Source of the DNA: Termitomyces sp. T153
Lineage: Eukaryota; Basidiomycota; Agaricomycetes; Agaricales; Lyophyllaceae
NCBI GenBank assembly: GCA_018296165.2
Contig: JACKQL020000123.1
Location: 62,001-126,000 of the forward strand
Direction: 5' to 3'
Length of the DNA stretch: 64,000 nt
Both the position numbers and the translations under genes were made by a program. Numbering within the stretch: the first letter of the stretch is position 1; each line of letters opens with the position of its first letter. The notes under the pieces are model-generated. The model had not been told where the DNA came from, did no database searches, and worked only from the letters and a program-made list of their open reading frames with translations. Of the stretch, positions 51,159 to 64,000 are shown in pieces.

Positions 51159-51253
51159 TTAGGGTGGACTAGGGTTGGAAAATTTTAGCTAGGGTGCAGG
51201 GTGAGAGGACTAGGGTGCAGGGTTCGAGGTGAGATACAGGGTGAGGGGACTAG
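51159..51253 (+). repeat. Degenerate telomere-like TAGGG tract
   Basis: About 95 bases holding one TTAGGG and four more TAGGG or CTAGGG words, interleaved with CAGGG, directly after an A-run. The G-rich strand reads left to right, the orientation expected if the chromosome end lies to the right. It is not a clean telomere array. Confidence 0.45.
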
Positions 51254-51308
51254 TTATATACATCGCTGGAATACCCACTAGTTATATACATCGCCGGAAT
51301 ACCCACTG
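51251..51308. repeat. Tandem pair ACTAGTTATATACATCGC
   Basis: Two adjacent copies of a 29-base unit (ACTAGTTATATACATCGC, then TGGAATACCC or CGGAATACCC). They differ by one base and open the compound array that follows. Confidence 0.6.
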
Positions 51309-51339
51309 TGGTAGCGATCCTTCCCGCGATCCCGGCGAT

Positions 51340-52900
51340 ACCCACTCTTAGGATCTCATCTGGTCATTTTCTAAGATAAAATTGGCTTGGCCTGGTCTTG
51401 CCACCGTTTTTGGGCTCCAGGAGGGCTCACTTTGAGGGATTGCTGTGGGATCGCCAGGAGTCGCTGAGCGATCCCAGCCATCCTAGACTTAGAATCTGAC
51501 TAGGTCATTTTCTAAGATAGCATTGGCCTGGACTGCTTTTGAGGGATCATCTTGGCTGAGCGATCCCAGCGATACCCACTCTTAGGATCTTACTTGGTTA
51601 TTTTCTAAGATAAAATTGGCTTGGAGTGCCCTTGCCACTGTTTTTGGGCTCCAGGAGGGCTCACTTTAAGGAATTGCTGTGGGATTGCCAGGAGTCGCTG
51701 AGTGATCCCAGCCATCCTTGACTTAGAATCTGACCTGGTTATTTTCTCGATACCCACTCTTAGGATCTTACTTGGTTATTTTCTAAGATAAAATTGGCTT
51801 GGACTGCCCTTGCCACTGTTTTTGGGCTCCAGGAGGGCTCACTTTAAGGAATTGCTGTGGGATTGCCAGGAGTCGCTGAGTGATCCCAGCCATCCTTGAC
51901 TTAGAATCTGACCTGGTTATTTTCTAGGATAGCATTGGTCAGGACTGCTTTTGAGGGATCATCTTGGCTGAGCGATCCCAGTGATCCCCAGTTTAGGGAC
52001 GTTATACAGTTCTTTTTTAGCCTAGTCTTAGAATCTAATCTGGTCATTTTCTAAGATAGCATTGGTCTGGACTGCTTTTGAGGGATCATTTTGACTGAGC
52101 GATCCCAGCGATCCCTAGTTTAGGGACGTTATCCAGTCCTTTTTTAGCCTAGTCTTAGAATCTAATCTGGTCATTTTCTAAGATAGCATTGGTCGGGACT
52201 GCTTTTGAGGGATCATCTTGGCTGACCGATCCTAGCGATACCCACTCTTAGGATCTTACCTAGTCATTTTCTAAGATAAAATTGGCTCGGCCTGCTCTTG
52301 CTACCGTTTTTGGGCTTCAGGAGGGCTCACACTAAGGGATTGCTATGGGATTGCCAGGAGTTGCTGAGCAATCCCAGCCATCCTTGACTTAGAATCTGAC
52401 CTGGTTATTTTCTAAGATAGCATTGGCCTGGACTGCTCTTCAGGGATCATTTTGACTAAGCAATCCCAGCGATCCCTAGTTTAGAGACCTTATCCAGTCC
52501 TTTTTTAGCCTAGTCTTAGAATCTAACCTGGTCATCTTCTAAGATAGCATTGGTCTGGACTGCTTTTGAGGAATCATCTTGGCTGAGCGATCCCAGTGAT
52601 ACCCACTCTTCGGATCTTACCTAGTCATTTTCAAGATGGTATTGGCCTAGACTTAGAATCTGACCAGATCATTTTCTAAGATAGCATTAGTCTGGACTGC
52701 TCTTGAGGGATCATCTTGGCTGAGCAATTCCAGCAATCCTCATAGCTCAGGACCTGACTTGGTTCTTTTTCAAGATAGTTGATCCCAATGATCCTCACAG
52801 CTTAGGACCTTATCTGGTCCTTTTCTGAGATGGCATTGGTCCAGACTTAGAATCTAACCTAGACATTTTCTAAGATAACATTGACCTGGACTGCTCTTGC
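51340..52900. repeat. Compound repeat array with TTCTAAGAT hairpin cores
   Basis: Two interleaved unit types. Type I (about 51347, 51587, 51758 and 52240) carries TCTTAGGATCTTACTTGGT, TTTTCTAAGATAAAATTGG, a CTCCAGGAGGGCTCAC word and GGGATTGCCAGGAGT. Type II (about 51490, 51720, 51895, 52025, 52150, 52385 and 52510, with later partial copies) carries CTTAGAATCTGACCTGGT, TTTTCTAAGATAGCATTGG and TTTTGAGGGATCATCTTGG. Each unit contains arms TCTTAGAA...TTCTAAGA, the same inverted motif as introns in the two genes downstream. No open frame runs through it. Confidence 0.8.
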
Positions 52901-53656
52901 CACTCTGCTTTAGGCTATTAGAAGGTGGATTGTCTGTATTACTAGAAACTTGGCTCATAGCTGGGGCTGAGCTTATGAAATTATCCAGAATTGTCAAAGT
53001 TCCCAGCAATTAGATTCTAGCTTTAAGCTTCAGATTTCAAATGGTTAGTTTTCAAGACAGCATGATAGACATCTTTCCTACAAACTTAGTGATTTCTGTG
53101 TTCAAATCTGATTGGGCCCCCTTTCAAAAATTCTATGGCTCTCAGCTGCTTTTGGTCCCTTCTTACTTGTCTGTATATTTGGATGAGCAGTACTAAGCAT
53201 TGCATGAATCATTTAAGCAACTTGACAATAACTCACAGTCTTCAGACAAGTAATATTTTGGAATGTGTCCCACTTTTATCAAAGTGAAAGCTTAATCCTA
53301 CTAGTAATTGTCTGCTTAAAATTCATAAAACCAACAATTAATACACATTTTATGGATCTTACAACTTATTCTTATTATTGTTTGCATCAGTCATTATCTG
53401 ATCACTAATCTGTTCTAATAGCTCAGTCTTATTATTTGCCCAAGTCAAATTATAAGATAGAATCATTTTAATTCTTTTGCTATTCCTCAAGGTTTGCTTC
53501 CTTTGGTTCACATTGAAGATCACATGATCAAATTACTGACCTGCCCTAAAGTCACTAGATCAAATTTCAGCTGAGTTTCAATTGTCTTCTTAACATTCAA
53601 CCACTACCATCCTTAAAAGGAATCATCTGTTCTTGATTACATAAGCGATAAGATCA
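52901..53656. other. AT-rich spacer and presumed promoter of the exon-array gene
   Basis: About 750 bases of non-repetitive AT-rich sequence with no ORF of note. Presumed promoter and 5' UTR of the gene starting at 53657; no TATA box could be fixed. Confidence 0.35.
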
Positions 53657-56600
53657 ATGGCATCTCAAGTACTGTCCATTTACTTTTTAAAGTGATTGTT
53701 TGCTGATTTCCACATTTTCCTTCTTTTAGTCATCCTCCAAGGTATTTTCCACTTATCTTAGAAACTGCTCAGAGCAGATTCTAAGATCCATTGTCAGTCT
53801 ACCAAGGCCACTGATTCCGGAGCTAGCAAGGTATTTTCTGCTTATCTTATAAACTGCTCAGAGCAGATTCTAAGATCCATTGTCAGTCTACTAAAGCCAG
53901 TGATTCTGGAATCAGCAAGGTATTTTCTGCTTATCTTATAAACTGCTCAGAGTAGATTCTAAGATACATTGTCAGTCTACCAAAGCCAGTGATTCCGGCA
54001 CTAGCAAGGTATTTTCTACCTATCTTACAAACTGCTCAGAGCAGATTCTAAGATCTATTGTCAGTCTACCAAAGCCAGTGATTCCGGCACCAGCAAGGTA
54101 TTTTCTACTTATCTTATAAACTGCTCAGAGCAGATTCTAAGATCCATTGTCAGTCTACTACCAAGGCCACTGTTTCCGGCACCAGCAAGGTATTTTCTGC
54201 TTATCTTATAAACTGCTCAGAGCAGATTCTAAGATCCATTGTCAGTCCATTAAAGCCAGTGATTCCGGCACCAGCAAGGTATTTTCTACCTATCTTAGAA
54301 ACTGTCCAGAGCAGATTCTAAGATCTATTGTCAGTCCATCAAGGCCACTGATTCCGGAGCTAGCAAGGTATTTTCTGCTTATCTTATAAACTGCTCAGAG
54401 CAGATTCTAAGATCCATTGTCAGTCCATCAAAGCCAGTGATTCTGGCACCAGCAAGGTATTTTCTACTTATCTTATAAACTGCTCAGAGCAGATTCTAAG
54501 ATCCATTGTCAGTCTACCAAGGCCACTGATTCTGGAACCAGCAAGGTATTTTCTACTGATCTTATAAACTGCTCATAGCAGATTCTAAGATCCATTGTCA
54601 GTCTACCAAAGCCAGTGATTCTGGCACCAGCAAGGTATTTTCTGCTTATCTTATAAACTGCTCAGAGCAGATTCTAAGATCCATTGTCAGTCCATCAAAG
54701 CCAGTGATTCCGGCACCAGCAAGGTATTTTCTACCTATCTTAGAAACTGTCCAGAGCAGATTCTAAGATCTATTGTCAGTCCATCAAGGCCACTGATTCC
54801 GGAGCTAGCAAGGTATTTTCTGCTTATCTTATAAACTGCTCAGAGCAGATTCTAAGATCCATTGTCAGTCTACTAAAACTAGTGATTCCGGAGCTAGCAA
54901 GGTATTTTCTGCTTATCTTATAAACTGCTCAGAGCAGATTCTAAGAAATACTTTTAGCCCAGAAAAACCACAATTGGAAGCATCACAAATCTGGATAAAC
55001 AGGTTGGAAGAAATTGTTAAACCTGTTATATGTTCTATTCAGCTAGCTTTTTAGATTCCTAAAGCTCTTAAAAAGGCTCAAAGAAAACTGGATGAGGCAG
55101 AGGAGCTGACTGCAGTTGCTTTGGATTCTGTGAAGGAACGACAAACCTTTCATGATATTATCTTGGCAGCTGTCATGGGCTACTGTTACTGGCCTGCACT
55201 CTGTGATCTTGGCTTTGGATTGATTGCACAGCTTCAAAGAGCTCTCATTAACAGCCGCCCCCAACATTATAAAGATCTCAAGGACATGTGGACAGCTCTT
55301 AACAATGGACAAGACCTTCACAATCATTCTGTGGAACATGCTATATATGTTCTTGTCAGCAAGCAGACTATCAAAATGGAATCTCTGACCTTCAATACCA
55401 GAGATATGCAGATGATTGAATTCTTGCCAGGCTGGAAGGGACTCACACTAGCAGATGCAACTGAGGAGCAGAAAATGCAGATGCCTGTTCTGGGCAATGG
55501 TGGTCACCGCCTAGATCTGTTGCGCACTTTCCAGTATTCACCCAAACTTGAGGTGTACAAAGATATCACTGCACAGATCGCAAAAATTGATGACACTGGC
55601 AAGAACACTCGCTCTAGACAGCCCTTGGTGGAGGAGCTGGAGAATTTGAAGAAGGAACTTCGAGAAGTGACTTGGGTAGCAAAGGTACTAGATTTGGGTG
55701 CGATATTTTCATCTTATAAAATGCTCAGAGTAAAAACTAAGATACAATTTATTAGACATGATCAATGCACATGAAGATGCTGCTTTAATCAAGGCAGAGT
55801 TGGCCAGCAACAAGTTGATCTTTCAAGTCCAGGAAACTGCGCAAAACACACTCTCAATGTTTTTCGACGTACTCAATCAACAGGATGTGGTTGATGCAGA
55901 CAACATAAACAGGATTCTGTCATCTCTCACAATTCAGACTGAAAGCAAGGATCGGCGTATCATCAAAGCTTTGTCCTCTGTTGACCTTGTCTATGCTTAT
56001 TCGCGCCTATGCTTTAACAGCTATTTTCATCGTGACATGCCTTTTTCAGTCACTGCATTGACTCGCTGGCGTCGTGCTTCCAGTGCCTATGCCATCGTAT
56101 ATTTCCAATGGATGGCCCTCACTTTTGAATGCCTATTTTCTGCCCATTCTCTCCTTGACTTTTCCACACTTCCAAGTTCTGAAGATTTTGGTTCTGACGA
56201 ATTCATACAAATGAGACGCAAGCTGCTTGGGAAACTCTGGGTATTTGATGGTCTTGACTTTTCTAAGAAAGAAACCCGATTCGATATATTGGATGACAAA
56301 TTCTACTGCCTCTTGAAGAATGCATCTAGCATTTATCGGACCAAATTGGACTCTTTTGGCTATAATCGTGACCAGCTCGATGATGATTTCATGGCCAACT
56401 ATGGGAAGGAGGTCTTTGATGTTTATATGACCTCCCTTTTGGACAACTTGGATAGCTGGATCAAATCTGCTCATGCTAAGTTTGCCAATGATCCAGTGGC
56501 TCAGAAGATCATCAATGCAATTCCCAACAAGTTGAATTGGCTTACAATGGCCCAACTTGGAGGTCAATTGTTTTATCCGAAGTATTATACAGCTCATCCT

Positions 56601-58614
56601 GTGGTCACAGCAGAATTCATCATGTCTGTTTGTGATGCCATGACTGAGCATGAAGAATCTATGATTATGGTGAGATCTTATAATCTGCTCTGGTCATATT
56701 CTAAGATGCTCAATGACTGGACAGATTGCTGGTCTTTATGAACCTCTGGTCCAGGCAATGCTTAGTCAAACCACATATACTAGTGGATCGGCAACAGTCT
56801 ACTCAGTATTGTGGTCTGCCTACAAGAAGCAAAATCCCAGAGCTGATACTAGAAAGGTCCAGATAGCCATCAACAATTGGCTAGGCACTCTTTTCCGATT
56901 TCGTCATTCTGGTTTAGAAGACATTCGTCGTTACAACATTGCCAACCATCCAAAGGAGAAAAATGCTCCACCATACCTTTTCAACAAGGTCGTTCCATTG
57001 CTCACTGGTCCTCCCAATGGTGATCCTCATCTTGAAGCAATGGAAGAGATGATTCCTATCCTGGCTGGTATTATAGATGGTGTTGACAGTGATGAGTTGG
57101 AGGATTGCTATGCAACTCTTGGATCTGATGAAGAGAATGAACAAGCTACAGATGGTGCCATCTTGGAGAATATTCTGCAGAGAACTTGCTATCAGTGGAC
57201 CAAAATCCCAGGGATGGAGAAGAGCAATAAAAATCGAACCAACAAATTGCGGCACTTGGTTCGATTCTTTTGGATTGGTGCTCATGCCCTCTATGGTTGC
57301 ATTGACTTGGATAGTGATGATGAACTTGATGACACTGACAACATTTATCAAGGAGGGGATACTCCATATTTGAAGAATCCCCGAGTCAGATGCATTGTGG
57401 ATGACTTGAAGGATTGGCCAGCTTGGTACTGCATTGGCCCTGCTGATCAATATGCAGCTGAAGGAAACTCAACTGACATCCTCAAGGCTGGATTAATTGA
57501 AGATGTTGAGCAGTTCCTCTCTATGCGCTCACTGGAATCTCAAGTGAAGAGTGTCAATACTACACATCAAACATTGCTCGAGCTCTTTTTGAAAAATCCA
57601 CTCTATCACTGCATTGTGAATGATCCAAAGACCAACAAGCCAGTGAAGACATTAAAAAGGCCATTTTTACGTATTTTGGAAGACCTTCATCAGGTGAGTC
57701 TTAGAATTTGACTTGGTCAGATTCTAAGATAGTTTTGTCTACAGGCATCATTTGAAGAGTTGCAAAATGGAGCCAAGCATCTTTTGCAACATGACTATAA
57801 TTTCAACAATCCACTCACCTCTGAAAATGTTGAAATGATTCACAAGCAGATGTTACCCTTGCCTGAATTTCCTTGGATTCCGACTAATCAAGAAATGATT
57901 GCTTGGCATTCACCAGAGAACATGGAGCTTTTGAACCGGACTGAAAAAGAGGAGGATCGTGATGTGCTACGCTTGGAACGTGCTCGTGAAAAACGTATGG
58001 CTGCCCAGGAGAAATTAAAACATGCAGAGAAGTCCTTTGTTCGTACACCAACTGTTGCTGCTATAAGGTCTGCATGTAAGTGTTTTAGTAACAAAAAGAT
58101 CTTGGCTGGCTTATGATTATACCTTAGCACGCTCTAGCAAGGGCAAGGGGAAGACCAAGACTTCTAATGATGATGTGGTTGATCAAGGTGGATTGGAACC
58201 AAGAGGTATGCTACTCAGTCTTATAAAGTGACCTGGCAGATTCTAAGACCATTTTCAGAGGAAGCTTCAGGGACATCTTCAGCTCTTCAAAAAAGTTCAT
58301 CAGTCAAGGGCAAGCGGAGTCGTTCAACATCTAGTATGCTTGTCTTATTATCTGTTCTGATGTTTTTATAAGATTCATTTTGAGCAGCTGAACAACATGA
58401 ACATGGACCAGCCAATGCCAAGAAACCCAGGGGTCCTGAAGGTGTTTGTGATATGCTTCAGAAGAGCTTTGAGTTGAATCATAGTGGGGGTGACAGTGGT
58501 AGTAGCAAAGGAGCAGCAATGCCAATTTCAACCAAGAAAGTGGTCTCTGCTTCTCAAAGCTCTATTGGAGGTGCAGCATTGGACAAGGATATTGAGATGG
58601 CTTCTTCTCCATAG
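53657..58614 (+). CDS. Large protein of unknown function with a 13-fold 15-residue exon repeat
   Basis: I do not recognise this family. Spliced by eye: 53657-53668 (MASQ), 53730-53741 (SSSK), thirteen repeat exons of 45 nt (the fifth, 54142-54189, is 48), then 54958-55002, 55055-55697, 55756-56669, 56725-57693, 57745-58075, 58128-58205, 58259-58333 and 58388-58614. All frames join, giving about 1297 residues. Each repeat exon codes IHCQSTKASDSGTSK or a variant and is phase 0 at both ends, so skipping any number keeps the frame. The body after residue ~220 is mixed alpha-helical with no signal peptide; it includes acidic runs (DSDDELDDTD) and, near the end, a charged coiled-coil stretch (RLERAREKRMAAQEKLKHAEK) and Lys/Ser-rich, nuclear-signal-like segments (GKGKTKTS, VKGKRSRSTS, KKPRG). 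Most introns carry the ATCTTA/TAAGAT hairpin. It lies 330 bp upstream of and co-oriented with the recombinase-helicase gene, suggesting a functional pair. Confidence 0.75.
53742..54945 (+). repeat. Tandem array of 89-bp exon-intron units (14 introns, 13 exons)
   Basis: Introns start at 53742, 53831, 53920, 54009, 54098, 54190, 54279, 54368, 54457, 54546, 54635, 54724, 54813 and 54902. All but the last are 44 nt, GTATTTTC to TTCTAAG. Exon units are 45 nt except one of 48. Each intron folds as arms ATCTTATAAACTGCTC / GAGCAGATTCTAAGAT, 14 of 16 pairs, with a one-base loop. The 3' splice site lies inside the stem. Between exon copies about half of the varying positions are third-codon positions in the proposed frame and all of those are silent; the single length change is +3. 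Units from 54190 and from 54635 share a higher-order block (IKASDSGTSK, then IYCQSIKATDSGASK). Confidence 0.85.
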
Positions 58615-58944
58615 AATTCTTAGTGCCTTTGATATCTTGGATTATAGCATATAACTTGTTGCTTTTCTGAAGTGTATTGCATTGAATGGCAATGAAAATT
58701 GCTAGTCTTTGTAATATCTAAAAAGTGACTGTAAGGAGGGTATGAGATTCAATTAGTTGTAGATCATCTAAGGTGTAACTTTGAAAAGATTGCATGCTTC
58801 GGTCATTTGTTTAGTTGCCGGGATTTGTATTTGTTGACTTGATTAAGATGTACAGTTCCTGGAATTTTTGATCCTGACTTGTTGGAACTCTTTCCTGTTT
58901 TGCTACCTTCCAAAAGCAGACATCACGTGATCATTACATAATCT
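58615..58944. other. Spacer between the two co-oriented genes
   Basis: 330 bases of AT-rich sequence carrying the 3' UTR of the first gene and the promoter of the second. No ORF and no hairpin-intron motif. Confidence 0.4.
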
Positions 58945-61900
58945 ATGGCTCAAACCACTGCTTTTGCTTCTTGCACAACTTGTCAACAGTCTTTTGAAGC
59001 AGAGACCTATGCTCAAGCAAAATCAGCTCGTGATGCTCATACTCGAACTTGTGTTGACTCTGTAGAGGTCACATATCTCAACACTACTGTGACATTGCAT
59101 CGAGATTCTGAAACAAATAATTTCTTCTGCATATGCTCCAAGTTTCCTAATGGCCACCAATACAACTCTACTCTTAGTCTCAAAAAACATGTTCACAGTT
59201 CTCAGTGCCACTGGCTGGGACATGTGGTATGCTCTATGTCTTATTATATGCTCTTGAATTTATTAAGATCATCAGAATCAACCACCAGGAATGACTGATA
59301 CTGGATTTAATGATGATTCTAGTGACTGTCAGGTATACTCAACATTTGACTACTCATTTTGTTACTAATACCTTTTTATTAGAAAACTAAAAATGACAGA
59401 CAAGTCAAATCACAACTACTTCATCCCAACTATCTTCAAAAATTTGGCATTGCATATAACACCAATATTGCTTGCCTAATCTGTCTCACTTGCTCTATTG
59501 CATTGGCACCTGGCCATATGGTAGAGCACATTAAAAACCAGCATGGTGATTGTGGAATACGACTTGACCAAAAGCTAGTAGATGAGGATCTAGCCCTGCT
59601 CATGCTCTCACCCCAACTTCCTCTTATGGATACTGCTATCAGGGATGAAATTCTGGGTTTATCTGTGCATTCAGCCTGGCAATGCAACTTATGCAATAAA
59701 GTTTATGGTGCTCAATCTAGCATGCTCAAACACCATAATATGGAGCATAACACAATGCCAGTTCCAACTACATGGACCCAAGTTTATGCTCAGCGCTTGA
59801 ATCACACCTTGCATCGATCATTCTTTCCAATTACTCCTGCATTGCAACCAATCAAGCAGCCAGCCCAAATAATTATTCATGAATTGCGAAGCAGGATGGA
59901 AGCTTTAGATGGCAAGCCAACTGGCCACAGACTTGATCCTAGACTTTTAAGTCCTTGGCTCAAATCCAATCGTTGGTCAGAGCTCATCAAGAATCATTCA
60001 ATTGATGAGTTGCTTGCTCTGGTGGCTCCAGTCAAGACCACTGAATTTCCAAGACTGGTGGAAGCTGTACACAGTTTATTTCTTGGGTCTGAAGACATGT
60101 TCAGCTTCATTCCAGAGCTTATTCTCCAACGTTTAAATTCTCCAGATCCTGCTAAAGAGTAGGTATCTTATTTTCTGTTCTAGTCATTTACTAAGATCGT
60201 GCCATACAGTGGTATCAACAACCAGCCATTCCATTGCCATCAAGATCATATTCACAGAATGAAGGAATATACCACTCCAGTTGTTCAATTGCTTGCCATG
60301 CTATTGCGACCATCCACAAGCCTTGTCTTTCCACTTTCCTCTGAAGCTGACAAGCGCTTGAATGATCTTCGAGATGCCATTTCTGATCCACATGCATTTG
60401 CACTATCTATGAAGGTGCTGCGAATTTTGATTGCTTTATGGACACACACTTGGACACCAAATCAAGATAATCTGTTCCCTGATCCCACCATTGTCTGTCT
60501 AGCATTGATGATGCTGCAGCCTGATGGATCATTCAAGCATCCAAAATATACCACTGGCCCAATTGCTCGCTTTGAATATTGTATGCGAAACACCTTCATG
60601 ATAGAAATCTATCGCAAAGTCAAACTAGATCCTACAACTTCCTTTCAATTCCAGATGGAATTGCTTGCACCATGGTTCACAGAAAAATATGATTCCACCT
60701 TCAACTCCTTGCGATCTCTGCAACATCGTGCAACTGCTATTGCTGAATCAACAATGGCTTTGCCTCGTGTTTGGTGGCTTGATCGCAAGCACTATCAAAC
60801 AATGCTTTATGAAGGCTGTCAAGTCACATTTAGCAACATCCAATGCACCTTTGTCAAGATTGAACATGTTTTGATCAAGGCTTGGCAACAAAATGTCTTA
60901 TGTGGCCTGAACTTACATGCCCAGTACAATGATCTAGCAGATGATTTAACCAATACTGCTGTTGGCTATTCCTTCATCACAGACCCTCGCAATCCCTTCA
61001 ACCAGCATTGTGACAGTCTAATCACTGCCATTCTGAAGGATCCTCTGCTTCGCAAACGCTTCATTGCTGTTGAACATGAAGATGGAACTCTAACATGGAA
61101 TAAAATGATTCTTCGCTCCTGGTTATATCAATATGCTCAATTTGAAGGCCTTTTGCTAGTGCGTGGACAGATGCTGGGTGGTGCACCAGGTCGAGGTACA
61201 GAGCTCACAGCAATGACTTATACAAATATTGCCACATCAACTCATCGGAATTGTGTGGCTTTTGGCAAATACTTGGCCATGCTTGTTACTTATCACAAAG
61301 GAACAGCTCTCACCGGCTCAGAAAAGCTCATTCCTCATGCATTTGATGGAGTCACCTCTGATCTCATTATTCAAAATCTTGCTATTGCTCGTCCCTTTGC
61401 TCAGTTGGCTGCATTTATATGCCATCATGATAGCCCAGACATACGTCAACTCTATCGTGATCATTTATTTGTGAACAATGGCAAGCTCTTCACTTCCACT
61501 GAGGTCTCTCGTATTATGCAAAGTTATACAGAGGAGACCATTGGTGTAAAGCTTGGATTGCAGGCATGGAGACAAGTCTCAATTGCTTTTCGACGCAAGC
61601 TATGCTCTGGACTTGATGATCTAATGGAAATTGATGAGCAAGACACCATCTCAGCTCAGCAAGCAACACATAGCCGTCGCACTGAAAACCGCATTTATGG
61701 CCTCAGTGCAGATGCACTCTCTGGAGTGGCTGAAGATGTACTGCCATTATATTTGGATGCCAGTACAGATTGGCAAATCATCTCTCGTGCTGTACCTGGA
61801 GGTCTTGGACTGGCCTATTATGATTGCCAAGCAATCCACTTTGACAAACTAGTTCAAGCTGGTGCTATTTCACCTTCAAGCAAGGGATCTTTAATTGCTC

Positions 61901-64000
61901 CCACATTATCTGCTACAAAAATCACTGCTGAAATGACCAGTGCTATCACTGAACAAGTGTTACAAGGGATACCCAATGCTGTTCAACATGTAGTGACCAC
62001 TGCAATTGAGCAAGCTTTAACTAATTTCAGTGAGATCTTATTATCTTTGCTTTCATATTATAAGATTAAGCTTTGTTCTATTGCAGGGACAAATTTGCAA
62101 GTTGAAATCCAGGATGCATTGAAGTTATATGCCAGTCAAAATGGACAGGACAGAAATACTCAAACATGTCAAAATAGCCTTGCTTTGACATCATCTCCAC
62201 TGCTCAACAGAGAATTCATCTCAGAATTCAACATCTCCAGTTCTAATCCAGCTCCTTCTGAGAGCTCTTATATCTCAGATGGTGACCTCAGCTATGTTAC
62301 TGATGACAAAGCCAGTATTCATGATGCATTATCAAGTGATGGTCCAGTAGAAATCATCACACAGGATATTTCATCTCCACAAATTGAAAAATATGATTTG
62401 ACTGGCAGTATGTGATGAATTTTCCTTTCAACACAATGATGTTAAAAATTGTTTCAATAGATCTTGAGTCAGCTGCTCTGGCAGGACTTTGTGCTGCACT
62501 CCATAATCCACAAGCAACATGGTCATCTCCTGAACAAAAGCATGCAGTTATAGCAGTGCTCCAACTCAAACAAGATGTTTGTGCCTTTTTGCGAACAGGA
62601 GCTGGAAAAACAATGCTGGCAATCATTCCAGCCTTGATAGAAGGGGGCCAAGTCACTGTGGTCATTCTTCCTCTCAAGTCACTAATCAGTGACTATAAGC
62701 GGAAACTTAAACAAATGAAGATTCCCTTTGAACATTATACTGGAGCAGAAGAAGAAATAATTACAGGCAATCATGCTTTGATTCTGGTCTCTGCTGATCG
62801 ATCTCGTACACCTGGGTGGCGCCAAACAGTTGCCAGAATACACAATACCAAGAAAGTCAATCGTTTTATCTTTGATGAAGGCCAGCTGGCTCTTACAGAT
62901 AATGATTTTCGGCCAGCTCTCCAGCACTTGGAAGATGTTCGCACAATTCCAGTGCAGCTTGTAGTTCTGTCTGCAACAATTCCAATTGCTAGTGAAAAGG
63001 CCCTTGCTAAAGCCTTTGGCCTAACACATGACTGGATTGGAATCAGAATGTCTACCGACCGACCCGAATTGGAATACATTATGCATTCACCAACTAGGTC
63101 ACACGAGGCAACATGTGCAGCTGTCTTAGAAACACTGCATGCAGAAATGAAGACATTCACACAGAGTGATAGAGCTCTCATTTTTGTCTCTTTGAAGGAA
63201 GAAGAGGGGCGACCCATTGTTGAGGCCCTTGGATGTGATTTTTATGAAGGAGGAGAAAGCATGGCTGATCAAAAGCGTGAGGCCATATATCATCGATGGA
63301 TTCAAGGCATCCACAAAGTTATGGTCTGCACCAATGCATTTGGAGCTGGCAATGACTATCCCAATGTTCGACTTGTGATTCATGCTGGCACACCCAAACA
63401 AATGATTGGTTTTACTCAAGAAGTGGGCCGAGCAGGTAGAGATGGACAATGGGCAAAATGTGTCATCATTCCACGGTATAAATCGAACATGGGCAAATAT
63501 CAGCATCCTCCTAAAGATGGTATTGATCACCGTGGATACAAGGCTATGTGGACAATGATATATCGCTCAAATCATTGCATTCGCTATAGCATTACTTCTT
63601 TCACTGATAAGGAGGGAATGTCTTGTGGTGTCACTGAAAATAGTCCAAGATGTTCTCGATGCTTGGTGCCTGCAATTGTACAGTGTGTTTTATATTATTT
63701 TACAATTATGAACACTTCTAACACATTTATACAGAAATGTAGGAAGAAGTGAGCCATCAAGCACTACTGCCTTAGTGTCTAGACATGTCCAAGAGTTTAA
63801 TCTCTCTAAGGCTATCACTGAGCAGCCCAACATATTATCTGGTGGCACTTCCTCAATCACTCGATCTATGTCTATTTTGAGATCGATTTCAGCTTGCTCA
63901 GAGTCAGTCTTAAAAACTTCATTATTGTTTTATAAGATTAATATCCATTGACAGGCCTGAGATGAAGTCTTTAGAGAGGAAAGGCATTTCTAGACCTGTG
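58945..64000 (+). CDS. Zinc finger, tyrosine-recombinase-like and RecQ-type helicase fusion protein (3' end beyond window)
   Basis: Exons 58945-59226, 59276-59332, 59393-60158, 60209-62029, 62087-62407, 62461-63682, 63735-63902 and 63955 onward give 1561 residues so far, all in frame. The N-terminal part has Cys/His pairs like zinc fingers (CTTCQQSF...H, CLICLTCS...HMVEHIKNQH, CNLCNKVYGAQSSMLKHHNMEH). The middle domain holds GGAPGRGTEL (R697), TYHKG (K732), LQAWRQ (R823) and THSRRTENRIYG (H856, Y865). The order and the 9-residue H-Y spacing match tyrosine recombinases, with Q in place of the usual first H of HxxR. The helicase has SSPEQKHAV, Walker A TGAGKT (about 1128-1133), a DEGQ motif II (from D1221), LSATIP, CTNAFGAGNDYPNVR and QEVGRAGRDGQ, a RecQ-like set. 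It resembles fungal subtelomeric RecQ helicases. No RQC/HRDC domain is visible before the window ends. Confidence 0.82.
60159..60208 (+). other. Hairpin intron of the recombinase-helicase gene (example)
   Basis: 50-nt phase-2 intron with arms ATCTTAT...ACTAAGAT. Splicing it joins the zinc-finger frame to GINNQPFHCHQDH; unspliced, the frame meets TAG at once. Comparable introns lie at 59227-59275, 62030-62086 and 63903-63954. Those at 59333-59392, 62408-62460 and 63683-63734 lack clear arms. Confidence 0.75.

Follow-up and report, generated by a model that had tools for sequence, protein, structure and literature searches.

RecQ helicase genes in subtelomeric regions of many fungi were first recognized in the 1990s, but there is still no consensus on their function and no account of how near-identical copies come to lie at many chromosome ends. 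Here, we analyzed a gene of the basidiomycete Termitomyces sp. T153 that encodes a RecQ-like helicase preceded, in the same polypeptide, by what is almost certainly a tyrosine recombinase (YR) domain. The stretch of DNA analyzed, referred to as the window, comprises 64,000 nucleotides (C123:62001-126000, contig JACKQL020000123.1, of the 72.4-Mb, 307-contig assembly GCA_018296165.2) and holds most of the gene. The two domains are fused in one chain, structure prediction recovers a YR fold, the catalytic Arg, Lys, Arg, His, and Tyr are near-invariant across distant fungi, and copies of the gene recur near contig ends. In outline, the family appears to correspond to the RecQ helicases already described as subtelomeric or OrsD-type. 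No description of its recombinase half was found in the literature searched, and this half appears to be new. Chromosome-end RecQ genes are already known, as are mobile genes encoding a YR, and the enzymatic activity discussed below is predicted.

Telomere-linked RecQ genes have been described from Agaricus bisporus var. burnettii, Ustilago maydis (UTASa/UTASb), Magnaporthe (TLH), Metarhizium, and Schizosaccharomyces pombe (tlh), and the window gene is likened to these by description. Common to both are a RecQ-like core without Pfam matches to RQC or HRDC and the presence of near-identical copies at sequence ends, and no report of a recombinase domain in the telomere-linked genes was found in the literature searched. 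In the accessible portions of two reports on RecQ genes near telomeres, no recombinase is named in that connection (PMC10817607, PMC4522978). For U. maydis, the available part of one report indicates that UTASb, which may hold an OrsD domain, is found close to telomere repeats or on the 5' side of UTASa, the segment with RecQ (PMC10532341), an order, as given there, that corresponds to the OrsD-then-RecQ order of the family described here.

With the recombinases Xer, Cre, and lambda Int, the window family shares the predicted fold, the R-K-R-H-Y order, and the 9 residues from the last His to the Tyr, which is the spacing seen in Xer and Int. Unlike these enzymes, it has N, R, A, S, or Q in place of the HxxR histidine and 33 residues between Arg II and the His, and the window protein, which has no Pfam YR match, carries the recombinase in one chain with a helicase and a zinc-finger-like region. 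Starship captains are DUF3435 YRs and, as far as the sources seen describe them, resemble the window gene as fungal YRs linked to mobility; however, Starships are described from Pezizomycotina, with cargo and with the captain at the edge of the cargo-bearing element, RecQ is unmentioned in the excerpts of Starship literature searched, and a Pfam scan (E up to 1) of the three open reading frames (ORFs) of the window gave no DUF3435 match. DIRS elements encode a YR plus reverse transcriptase (RT)/RNase H and no RecQ helicase. They are probably represented in the same genome, and differ from the window gene by carrying RT/RNase H instead of RecQ: sub-cut-off Phage_integrase matches (E 0.002-0.05) on contigs C216, C38, C268, C202, C132, and others adjoin RT/RNase H-like frames, and these loci, identified by eye, are probably DIRS-like retrotransposons. 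AcademH is a DDE transposon. Many fungal helicase fusions have been attributed to AcademH, KolobokH, or Helitron in the part of one report available (PMC10799480), and YR captains are named merely as a search method in that of another (PMC13066641). Cryptons share with the window gene that they are eukaryotic, fungal, and YR-encoding. The fungal ones carry a C-terminal GCR1_C domain, and the word "helicase" is absent from the main text of the report in the form available (PMC3212892); the Pfam scan of the three ORFs (E up to 1) gave no GCR1_C match either. Cryptons are discrete elements with 4-6 bp direct repeats at their termini, and no element boundaries were found for the window gene. The literature searched, part of it available as excerpts, yielded no description of a fusion between a YR and RecQ; subscription literature lay largely outside this search, so a report is possible.

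The window gene is a single multi-exon gene on the plus strand, in which three long open frames (59503-60162, 60199-62415, and 62412-63752) are joined into one chain by short GT-AG introns in our splice model. The modeled protein is 1766 aa long, with eight splice combinations possible at the last introns and an approximate C-terminus. A preliminary description of this DNA had placed a tyrosine-recombinase-like domain fused to a RecQ-type helicase at 60209..63682; this interval does lie inside one plus-strand gene, but the gene is longer at both ends, extending from a presumed start at 58945 to a frame that stays open up to window-equivalent 64661. The protein consists, in order, of a zinc-finger-like N-terminus, the middle region encoded by exon 4, a linker, the RecQ-like helicase, and a Cys-rich end, distributed over the gene as follows.

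58945..59226, + strand: exon 1, zinc-finger-like N-terminal region with the presumed start ATG (splice model)
59276..59332, + strand: exon 2 (splice model)
59383..60158, + strand: exon 3, C2H2-like Cys/His region (splice model)
60210..62029, + strand: exon 4, encoding a helical N-terminal portion and the catalytic domain of the tyrosine recombinase (AlphaFold2 model, structural matches)
61063..61806, + strand: tyrosine recombinase catalytic domain, folded separately, 248 aa
62087..62407, + strand: exon 5, linker (splice model)
62461..63682, + strand: exon 6, RecQ-like helicase with GAGKT, DEGQ, and QEVGRAGR (Pfam, splice model)
63735..63902, + strand: exon 7, with an uncertain donor (8 splice combinations possible)
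63955..64000, + strand: exon 8, acceptor uncertain, leaves the window
end at window-equivalent 64661, outside the window, + strand: last exon, Cys-rich C-terminus

The evidence for a recombinase comes from conservation and from structure prediction. An AlphaFold2 model of exon 4 (pLDDT 86.6, pTM 0.76) and a model of the catalytic domain alone both matched tyrosine recombinases and topoisomerase IB best, which supports the proposal that this region has the recombinase fold. For the catalytic domain model, a wide gap separated the YR and topoisomerase IB matches from other folds, and XerH, XerD, XerA, and Cre ranked above topoisomerase IB. These matches rest on re-alignments against ranked Protein Data Bank (PDB) chains. 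The exon 4 alignments ended with residue 497 on Cre 325 and on Tn1549 Int 380, which, if contiguous, would place Y496 on Cre 324 and Tn1549 379. Cryptons and captains were absent from the structural match lists, an absence that carries no evidential weight.

The motifs quoted in the preliminary description were all found on the plus strand and in frame, and the five residues it had proposed as catalytic are all present, with numbers 3 higher in the splice model. Their positions, with the preliminary numbering second in brackets and their retention among 151 domains, are listed here.

61192-61194, + strand: catalytic Arg I, R328 of exon 4 (R700; R697), kept in 151 of 151
61297-61299, + strand: catalytic Lys in a beta hairpin, K363 of exon 4 (K735; K732), kept in 151 of 151
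61570-61572, + strand: catalytic Arg II, R454 of exon 4 (R826; R823), kept in 148 of 151
61669-61671, + strand: catalytic His, H487 of exon 4 (H859; H856), kept in 143 of 151, with R in 8
61696-61698, + strand: nucleophilic Tyr, Y496 of exon 4 (Y868; Y865), kept in 151 of 151

The domains counted comprise 150 matches to a YR profile plus the window, 6 of 156 matches having been excluded with a matched span of 190 aa or less. The conservation anticipated for the five residues, including the tyrosine, was thus borne out, and their order, with the Tyr 9 residues after the His, is kept among these domains as well as in a distant set of 20 (20, 20, 20, 19, and 20, respectively). Similar results were obtained with protein alignments. 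In an alignment of 69 proteins, consisting of the window and 68 chosen for spread among 120 listed of 211 homologues, R328 and K363 were kept in 69/69, R454 in 66/69, H487 in 63/69, and Y496 in 68/69, with one gap. In another, composed of the window and 19 proteins 17-43% identical to it, only 8 of 606 exon 4 columns were invariant (G324, R328, E331, R346, K363, R454, Y496, and W521), and H487 was kept in 19 of the 20. Four of the five named residues fall among these invariant columns (hypergeometric P = 6e-8, assuming all columns equally likely). An alignment of the domain from the window and 51 other proteins left only G, R328, E, Y361, K363, R454, and Y496 invariant. Divergent relatives, ~20% identical, retain G...R..E, Y.K, [WFY]R[QH], and [HR]........Y, the exceptions among the 20 divergent proteins being a C for the Y of Y.K in one and an R for the H in one. 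An R stands where the catalytic H is expected in P0017 and P0019, and the rows gapped at catalytic places (P0010, P0122, P0128, and P0140) look truncated or differently modeled. A regular-expression search for the pattern matched 30 of 46 proteins and missed true members (e.g., P0155), and its count was not used.

One element of the classical active site is not kept: three positions ahead of Arg II, where the HxxR motif has its histidine (or Lys), the residue is most commonly N (73 of the 151 domains), R (26), A (16), S (15), or Q (11). Some YRs vary at this histidine, and because of this, and because the fold and the other residues fit, the domain is counted within the tyrosine recombinase superfamily as a variant. 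A family that retains a YR active site across such distance most likely uses it, and we consider it very probable that the domain is an active enzyme.

Profile comparison with integrases, which had been suggested as a further check, gave a weak result (best P 5e-4, probability 31%), in which XerD R148, K172, and R247 nevertheless aligned with R328, K363, and R454. When a 95-sequence family profile was compared by hhalign with XerD alone, P was 0.052 (1%), and with a mixed set it was 5e-4 (31%). A narrower profile gave P 0.21 (0.3%) against XerD only and 0.0082 (5%) when lambda Int, Cre, FimB, and FimE were added. A 25-row profile yielded P 0.4 and 0.15, with an alignment spanning all motifs up to the tyrosine, and the N-terminal 200 residues of exon 4, used as a control, yielded P 0.32 and 0.22. 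A HMMER comparison of the family profile with 85 bacterial and phage YRs returned nothing below E 0.38, and phmmer and profile searches of PDB sequences did not detect a recombinase. Exon 4 of the window matched no Pfam family at E up to 1, PF00589 included, and no YR family was among the Pfam families listed for its relatives (25 of 39 for 57 members; 25 of 26 for 20 members). PF00589 searched against the whole genome gave 12 sub-cut-off candidates, none of them at the six copies of exon 4 described below.

The RecQ-like helicase expected downstream in the same chain was recovered by Pfam matches to DEAD (2.8e-16) and Helicase_C (5.6e-13), joined to the recombinase by the splice model. Its closest solved relatives are BLM (7e-25) and WRN (1e-21), and its motif II reads DEGQ, not DEAH. 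RQC, RecQ_Zn_bind, and HRDC had no Pfam match at E up to 1 in ORF 62412-63749, where the scan ended, before the C-terminal exons. Among 254 fetched proteins, 52 matched both the YR and the helicase profile, a number that is not an independent discovery, the profiles being built from family members, and the YR came first in 52/52. Among the 48 that exceed 900 aa, the pairwise identity of the YR correlated with that of the helicase (r = 0.92). Based on the constant order and this correlation, comparison of the sequences indicates that the YR and helicase domains are inherited together. Of 150 helicase-profile matches, 98 were without a YR (bacterial RecQ, BLM, WRN, and others); therefore, ordinary RecQs are without the recombinase domain. 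At the other end of the protein, zf-C2H2 matched the exon 3 region below the cut-off (E 0.057, ORF 59503-60159). OrsD (PF12013) had no Pfam match in the window protein itself but was found near the N-terminus in 14 members of the 20-protein alignment (E up to 1), and P0001 also has an OrsD match (7e-8).

The same genome contains a second, strongly diverged recombinase-helicase gene at C128:25359-29999 on the minus strand, ~25 kb inside its contig. It is 28% identical to window exon 4 over 203 residues and repeats the pattern as ARGTE, YNKS, DWRQ, and HSLTTGQNHY, followed by a RecQ-like helicase. Over the region searched, it is 97% identical to a protein of Termitomyces sp. T112, and as a query it recovered 20 proteins of 796-2240 aa. 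P0121, P0123, P0124, and P0126 (1637-1719 aa) have OrsD, DEAD, and Helicase_C, and a query with the helicase part of P0121 (202 proteins found, of which 120 were listed) extended the set to OrsD-helicases at greater distance. P0155, from the lichen ascomycete Xanthomendoza, is a homologous OrsD-helicase that keeps the divergent catalytic pattern. A degraded relative with two internal stops, 45% identical over 119 residues, was also observed at C147:4731-5689, ~5 kb from a further contig end.

Exon 4 is present in six intact copies, identical in protein, on C3, C12, C60, C81, C110, and C123. Each copy is 7.4-10.3 kb away from a contig end, toward which it is transcribed, the contig in each case continuing for >100 kb upstream and stopping 7-10 kb past exon 4 downstream. 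Over 15.4-17.7 kb, the surrounding blocks show 99.4-99.99% identity. Relative to the C123 copy, no more than 12 substitutions lie outside the 54-55 kb minisatellite, and at most two of these are in the coding exons of the recombinase-helicase that were compared. The 99.5% identity of C3 to other ends was not taken as ordinary divergence flanking a conserved recombinase exon, most substitutions being in the minisatellite, and for the same reason we make no claim of selection from these copies. C12, C81, C110, and C123 end at an identical base, and C3 and C60 continue into a repeat. Position at a contig end alone is no proof of telomeric location, because repeats break assemblies, and five tandem units of TTAGGG were absent from the whole assembly, the telomeres themselves not being seen. 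The outermost part of C60 (outer 4000 bp) holds a satellite with 803-bp spacing, of which partial copies occur at C26:534419, C30:331559, and C5:1542539.

With six outward-pointing copies near contig ends, the suggestion of a mobile or telomere-maintaining element is plausible. We favor, with some confidence, the interpretation that the window gene encodes a single-chain recombinase-helicase serving its own persistence at chromosome ends, that is, a YR-driven selfish gene. Following established YR chemistry, Tyr868 would attack the scissile phosphate to form a 3'-phosphotyrosine link, with the two Arg, the Lys, and the His holding or activating the phosphate. Unwinding or branch migration of the junction by the RecQ motor may then extend the strand exchange. 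The zinc-binding part may pick a subtelomeric or satellite site, at which the YR would perform strand exchange, and the surrounding block may be copied onto, or integrated at, other chromosome ends, or exchanged between ends. A role in spreading at chromosome ends is, on balance, probable, and the subtelomeric RecQ genes of fungi may belong to this end-associated selfish family. More broadly, the chances appear about even that many subtelomeric or OrsD-type RecQ genes of basidiomycetes and ascomycetes form one ancient family of active single-chain recombinase-helicases, acting as YR-driven chromosome-end mobile genes or as end-recombination enzymes, whose recombinase half was missed, no profile recognizing it.

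The main rivals to a selfish gene are a host-serving enzyme of end maintenance and a junction-processing enzyme. The former would not be selfish and would homogenize or repair subtelomeres, for instance, in cells with short telomeres, by promoting exchange between ends. The near-identical copies near contig ends and the homogenized 15-17 kb block are consistent with this, as is the upregulation of the telomere-linked helicase gene UMAG_12032 in telomerase-negative U. maydis survivors, reported in the accessible part of PMC10532341. However, a whole Agaricus bisporus subspecies is without subtelomeric RecQ genes and, from what is available of the report, has no apparent telomeric abnormality (PMC7473861). 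The second, divergent recombinase-helicase gene, ~25 kb inside a contig, also argues against host service, which we regard as possible but rather unlikely.

It is less probable still, and in our view improbable, that the protein is a single-chain junction processor in which RecQ is combined with a YR- or topoisomerase IB-like cutter to resolve or dissolve Holliday junctions. Counterparts exist in RecQ-topoisomerase pairs and in reverse gyrase, a helicase fused to a topoisomerase, but the copy number and contig-end position are unlike those of a housekeeping repair enzyme, and XerH, XerD, XerA, and Cre rank above topoisomerase IB in the structural comparison.

The domain could also be a YR relic kept for DNA binding alone, as in Crypton-derived proteins (GCR1/Ndc10-type, DUF3504), leaving the protein to work as a helicase. 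Domesticated, catalytically dead YRs provide precedents in the accessible part of PMC3212892, and the lack of conservation of the HxxR histidine in this family speaks for such a relic. Yet few positions of the domain are invariant, R, K, R, and Y being among them, and the DUF3504 genes, according to the same portion of that report, all lost the tyrosine and the second arginine (PMC3212892), so that we consider a relic very improbable. That the resemblance to recombinases is a coincidence of motifs, in favor of which stands the lack of a significant sequence-level match to any known YR (none among the Pfam families listed for the relatives), has a negligible chance of being correct.

The presence of a recombinase active site and a RecQ helicase in one polypeptide offers a testable answer to how near-identical RecQ copies reach many ends, and OrsD-containing helicases in fungal annotations may be unrecognized recombinases. 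If active, the enzyme could serve as a new tool for recombination and could generate structural variation at the ends of fungal chromosomes.

Two further features of the repeated block lie upstream of the recombinase-helicase gene in the window.

53738..54946, + strand: 89-bp minisatellite array upstream of gene A, holding most substitutions between the block copies
55121..58614, + strand: gene A, multi-exon, with approximate limits, recurring together with the helicase gene close to contig ends

A diverged paralogue of gene A, 55% identical in the part compared, is located downstream of the helicase gene (C123:127762-130756) and is found on the same six contigs. Gene A and its paralogue contain a GNGGHR(L) box, which we take to recall ParB/sulfiredoxin-like motifs, without Pfam support. 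Gene A is also present on C105, for which the matches listed include none to the recombinase exon. The region upstream of gene A is rich in minisatellites, with units of 28, 89, 127, 178, and 234 bp at window 51249-54946. On its plus strand, the window contains 27 occurrences of the motif TCTAAGAT, 26 of these at 51 kb or later; two of the 26 fall in the gene A region, at 56700 and 57723, the latter within an intron-like stretch. The GC content falls from 0.43-0.55 to 0.39-0.43 in window 52001-64000, near the position of the repeated contig-end block.

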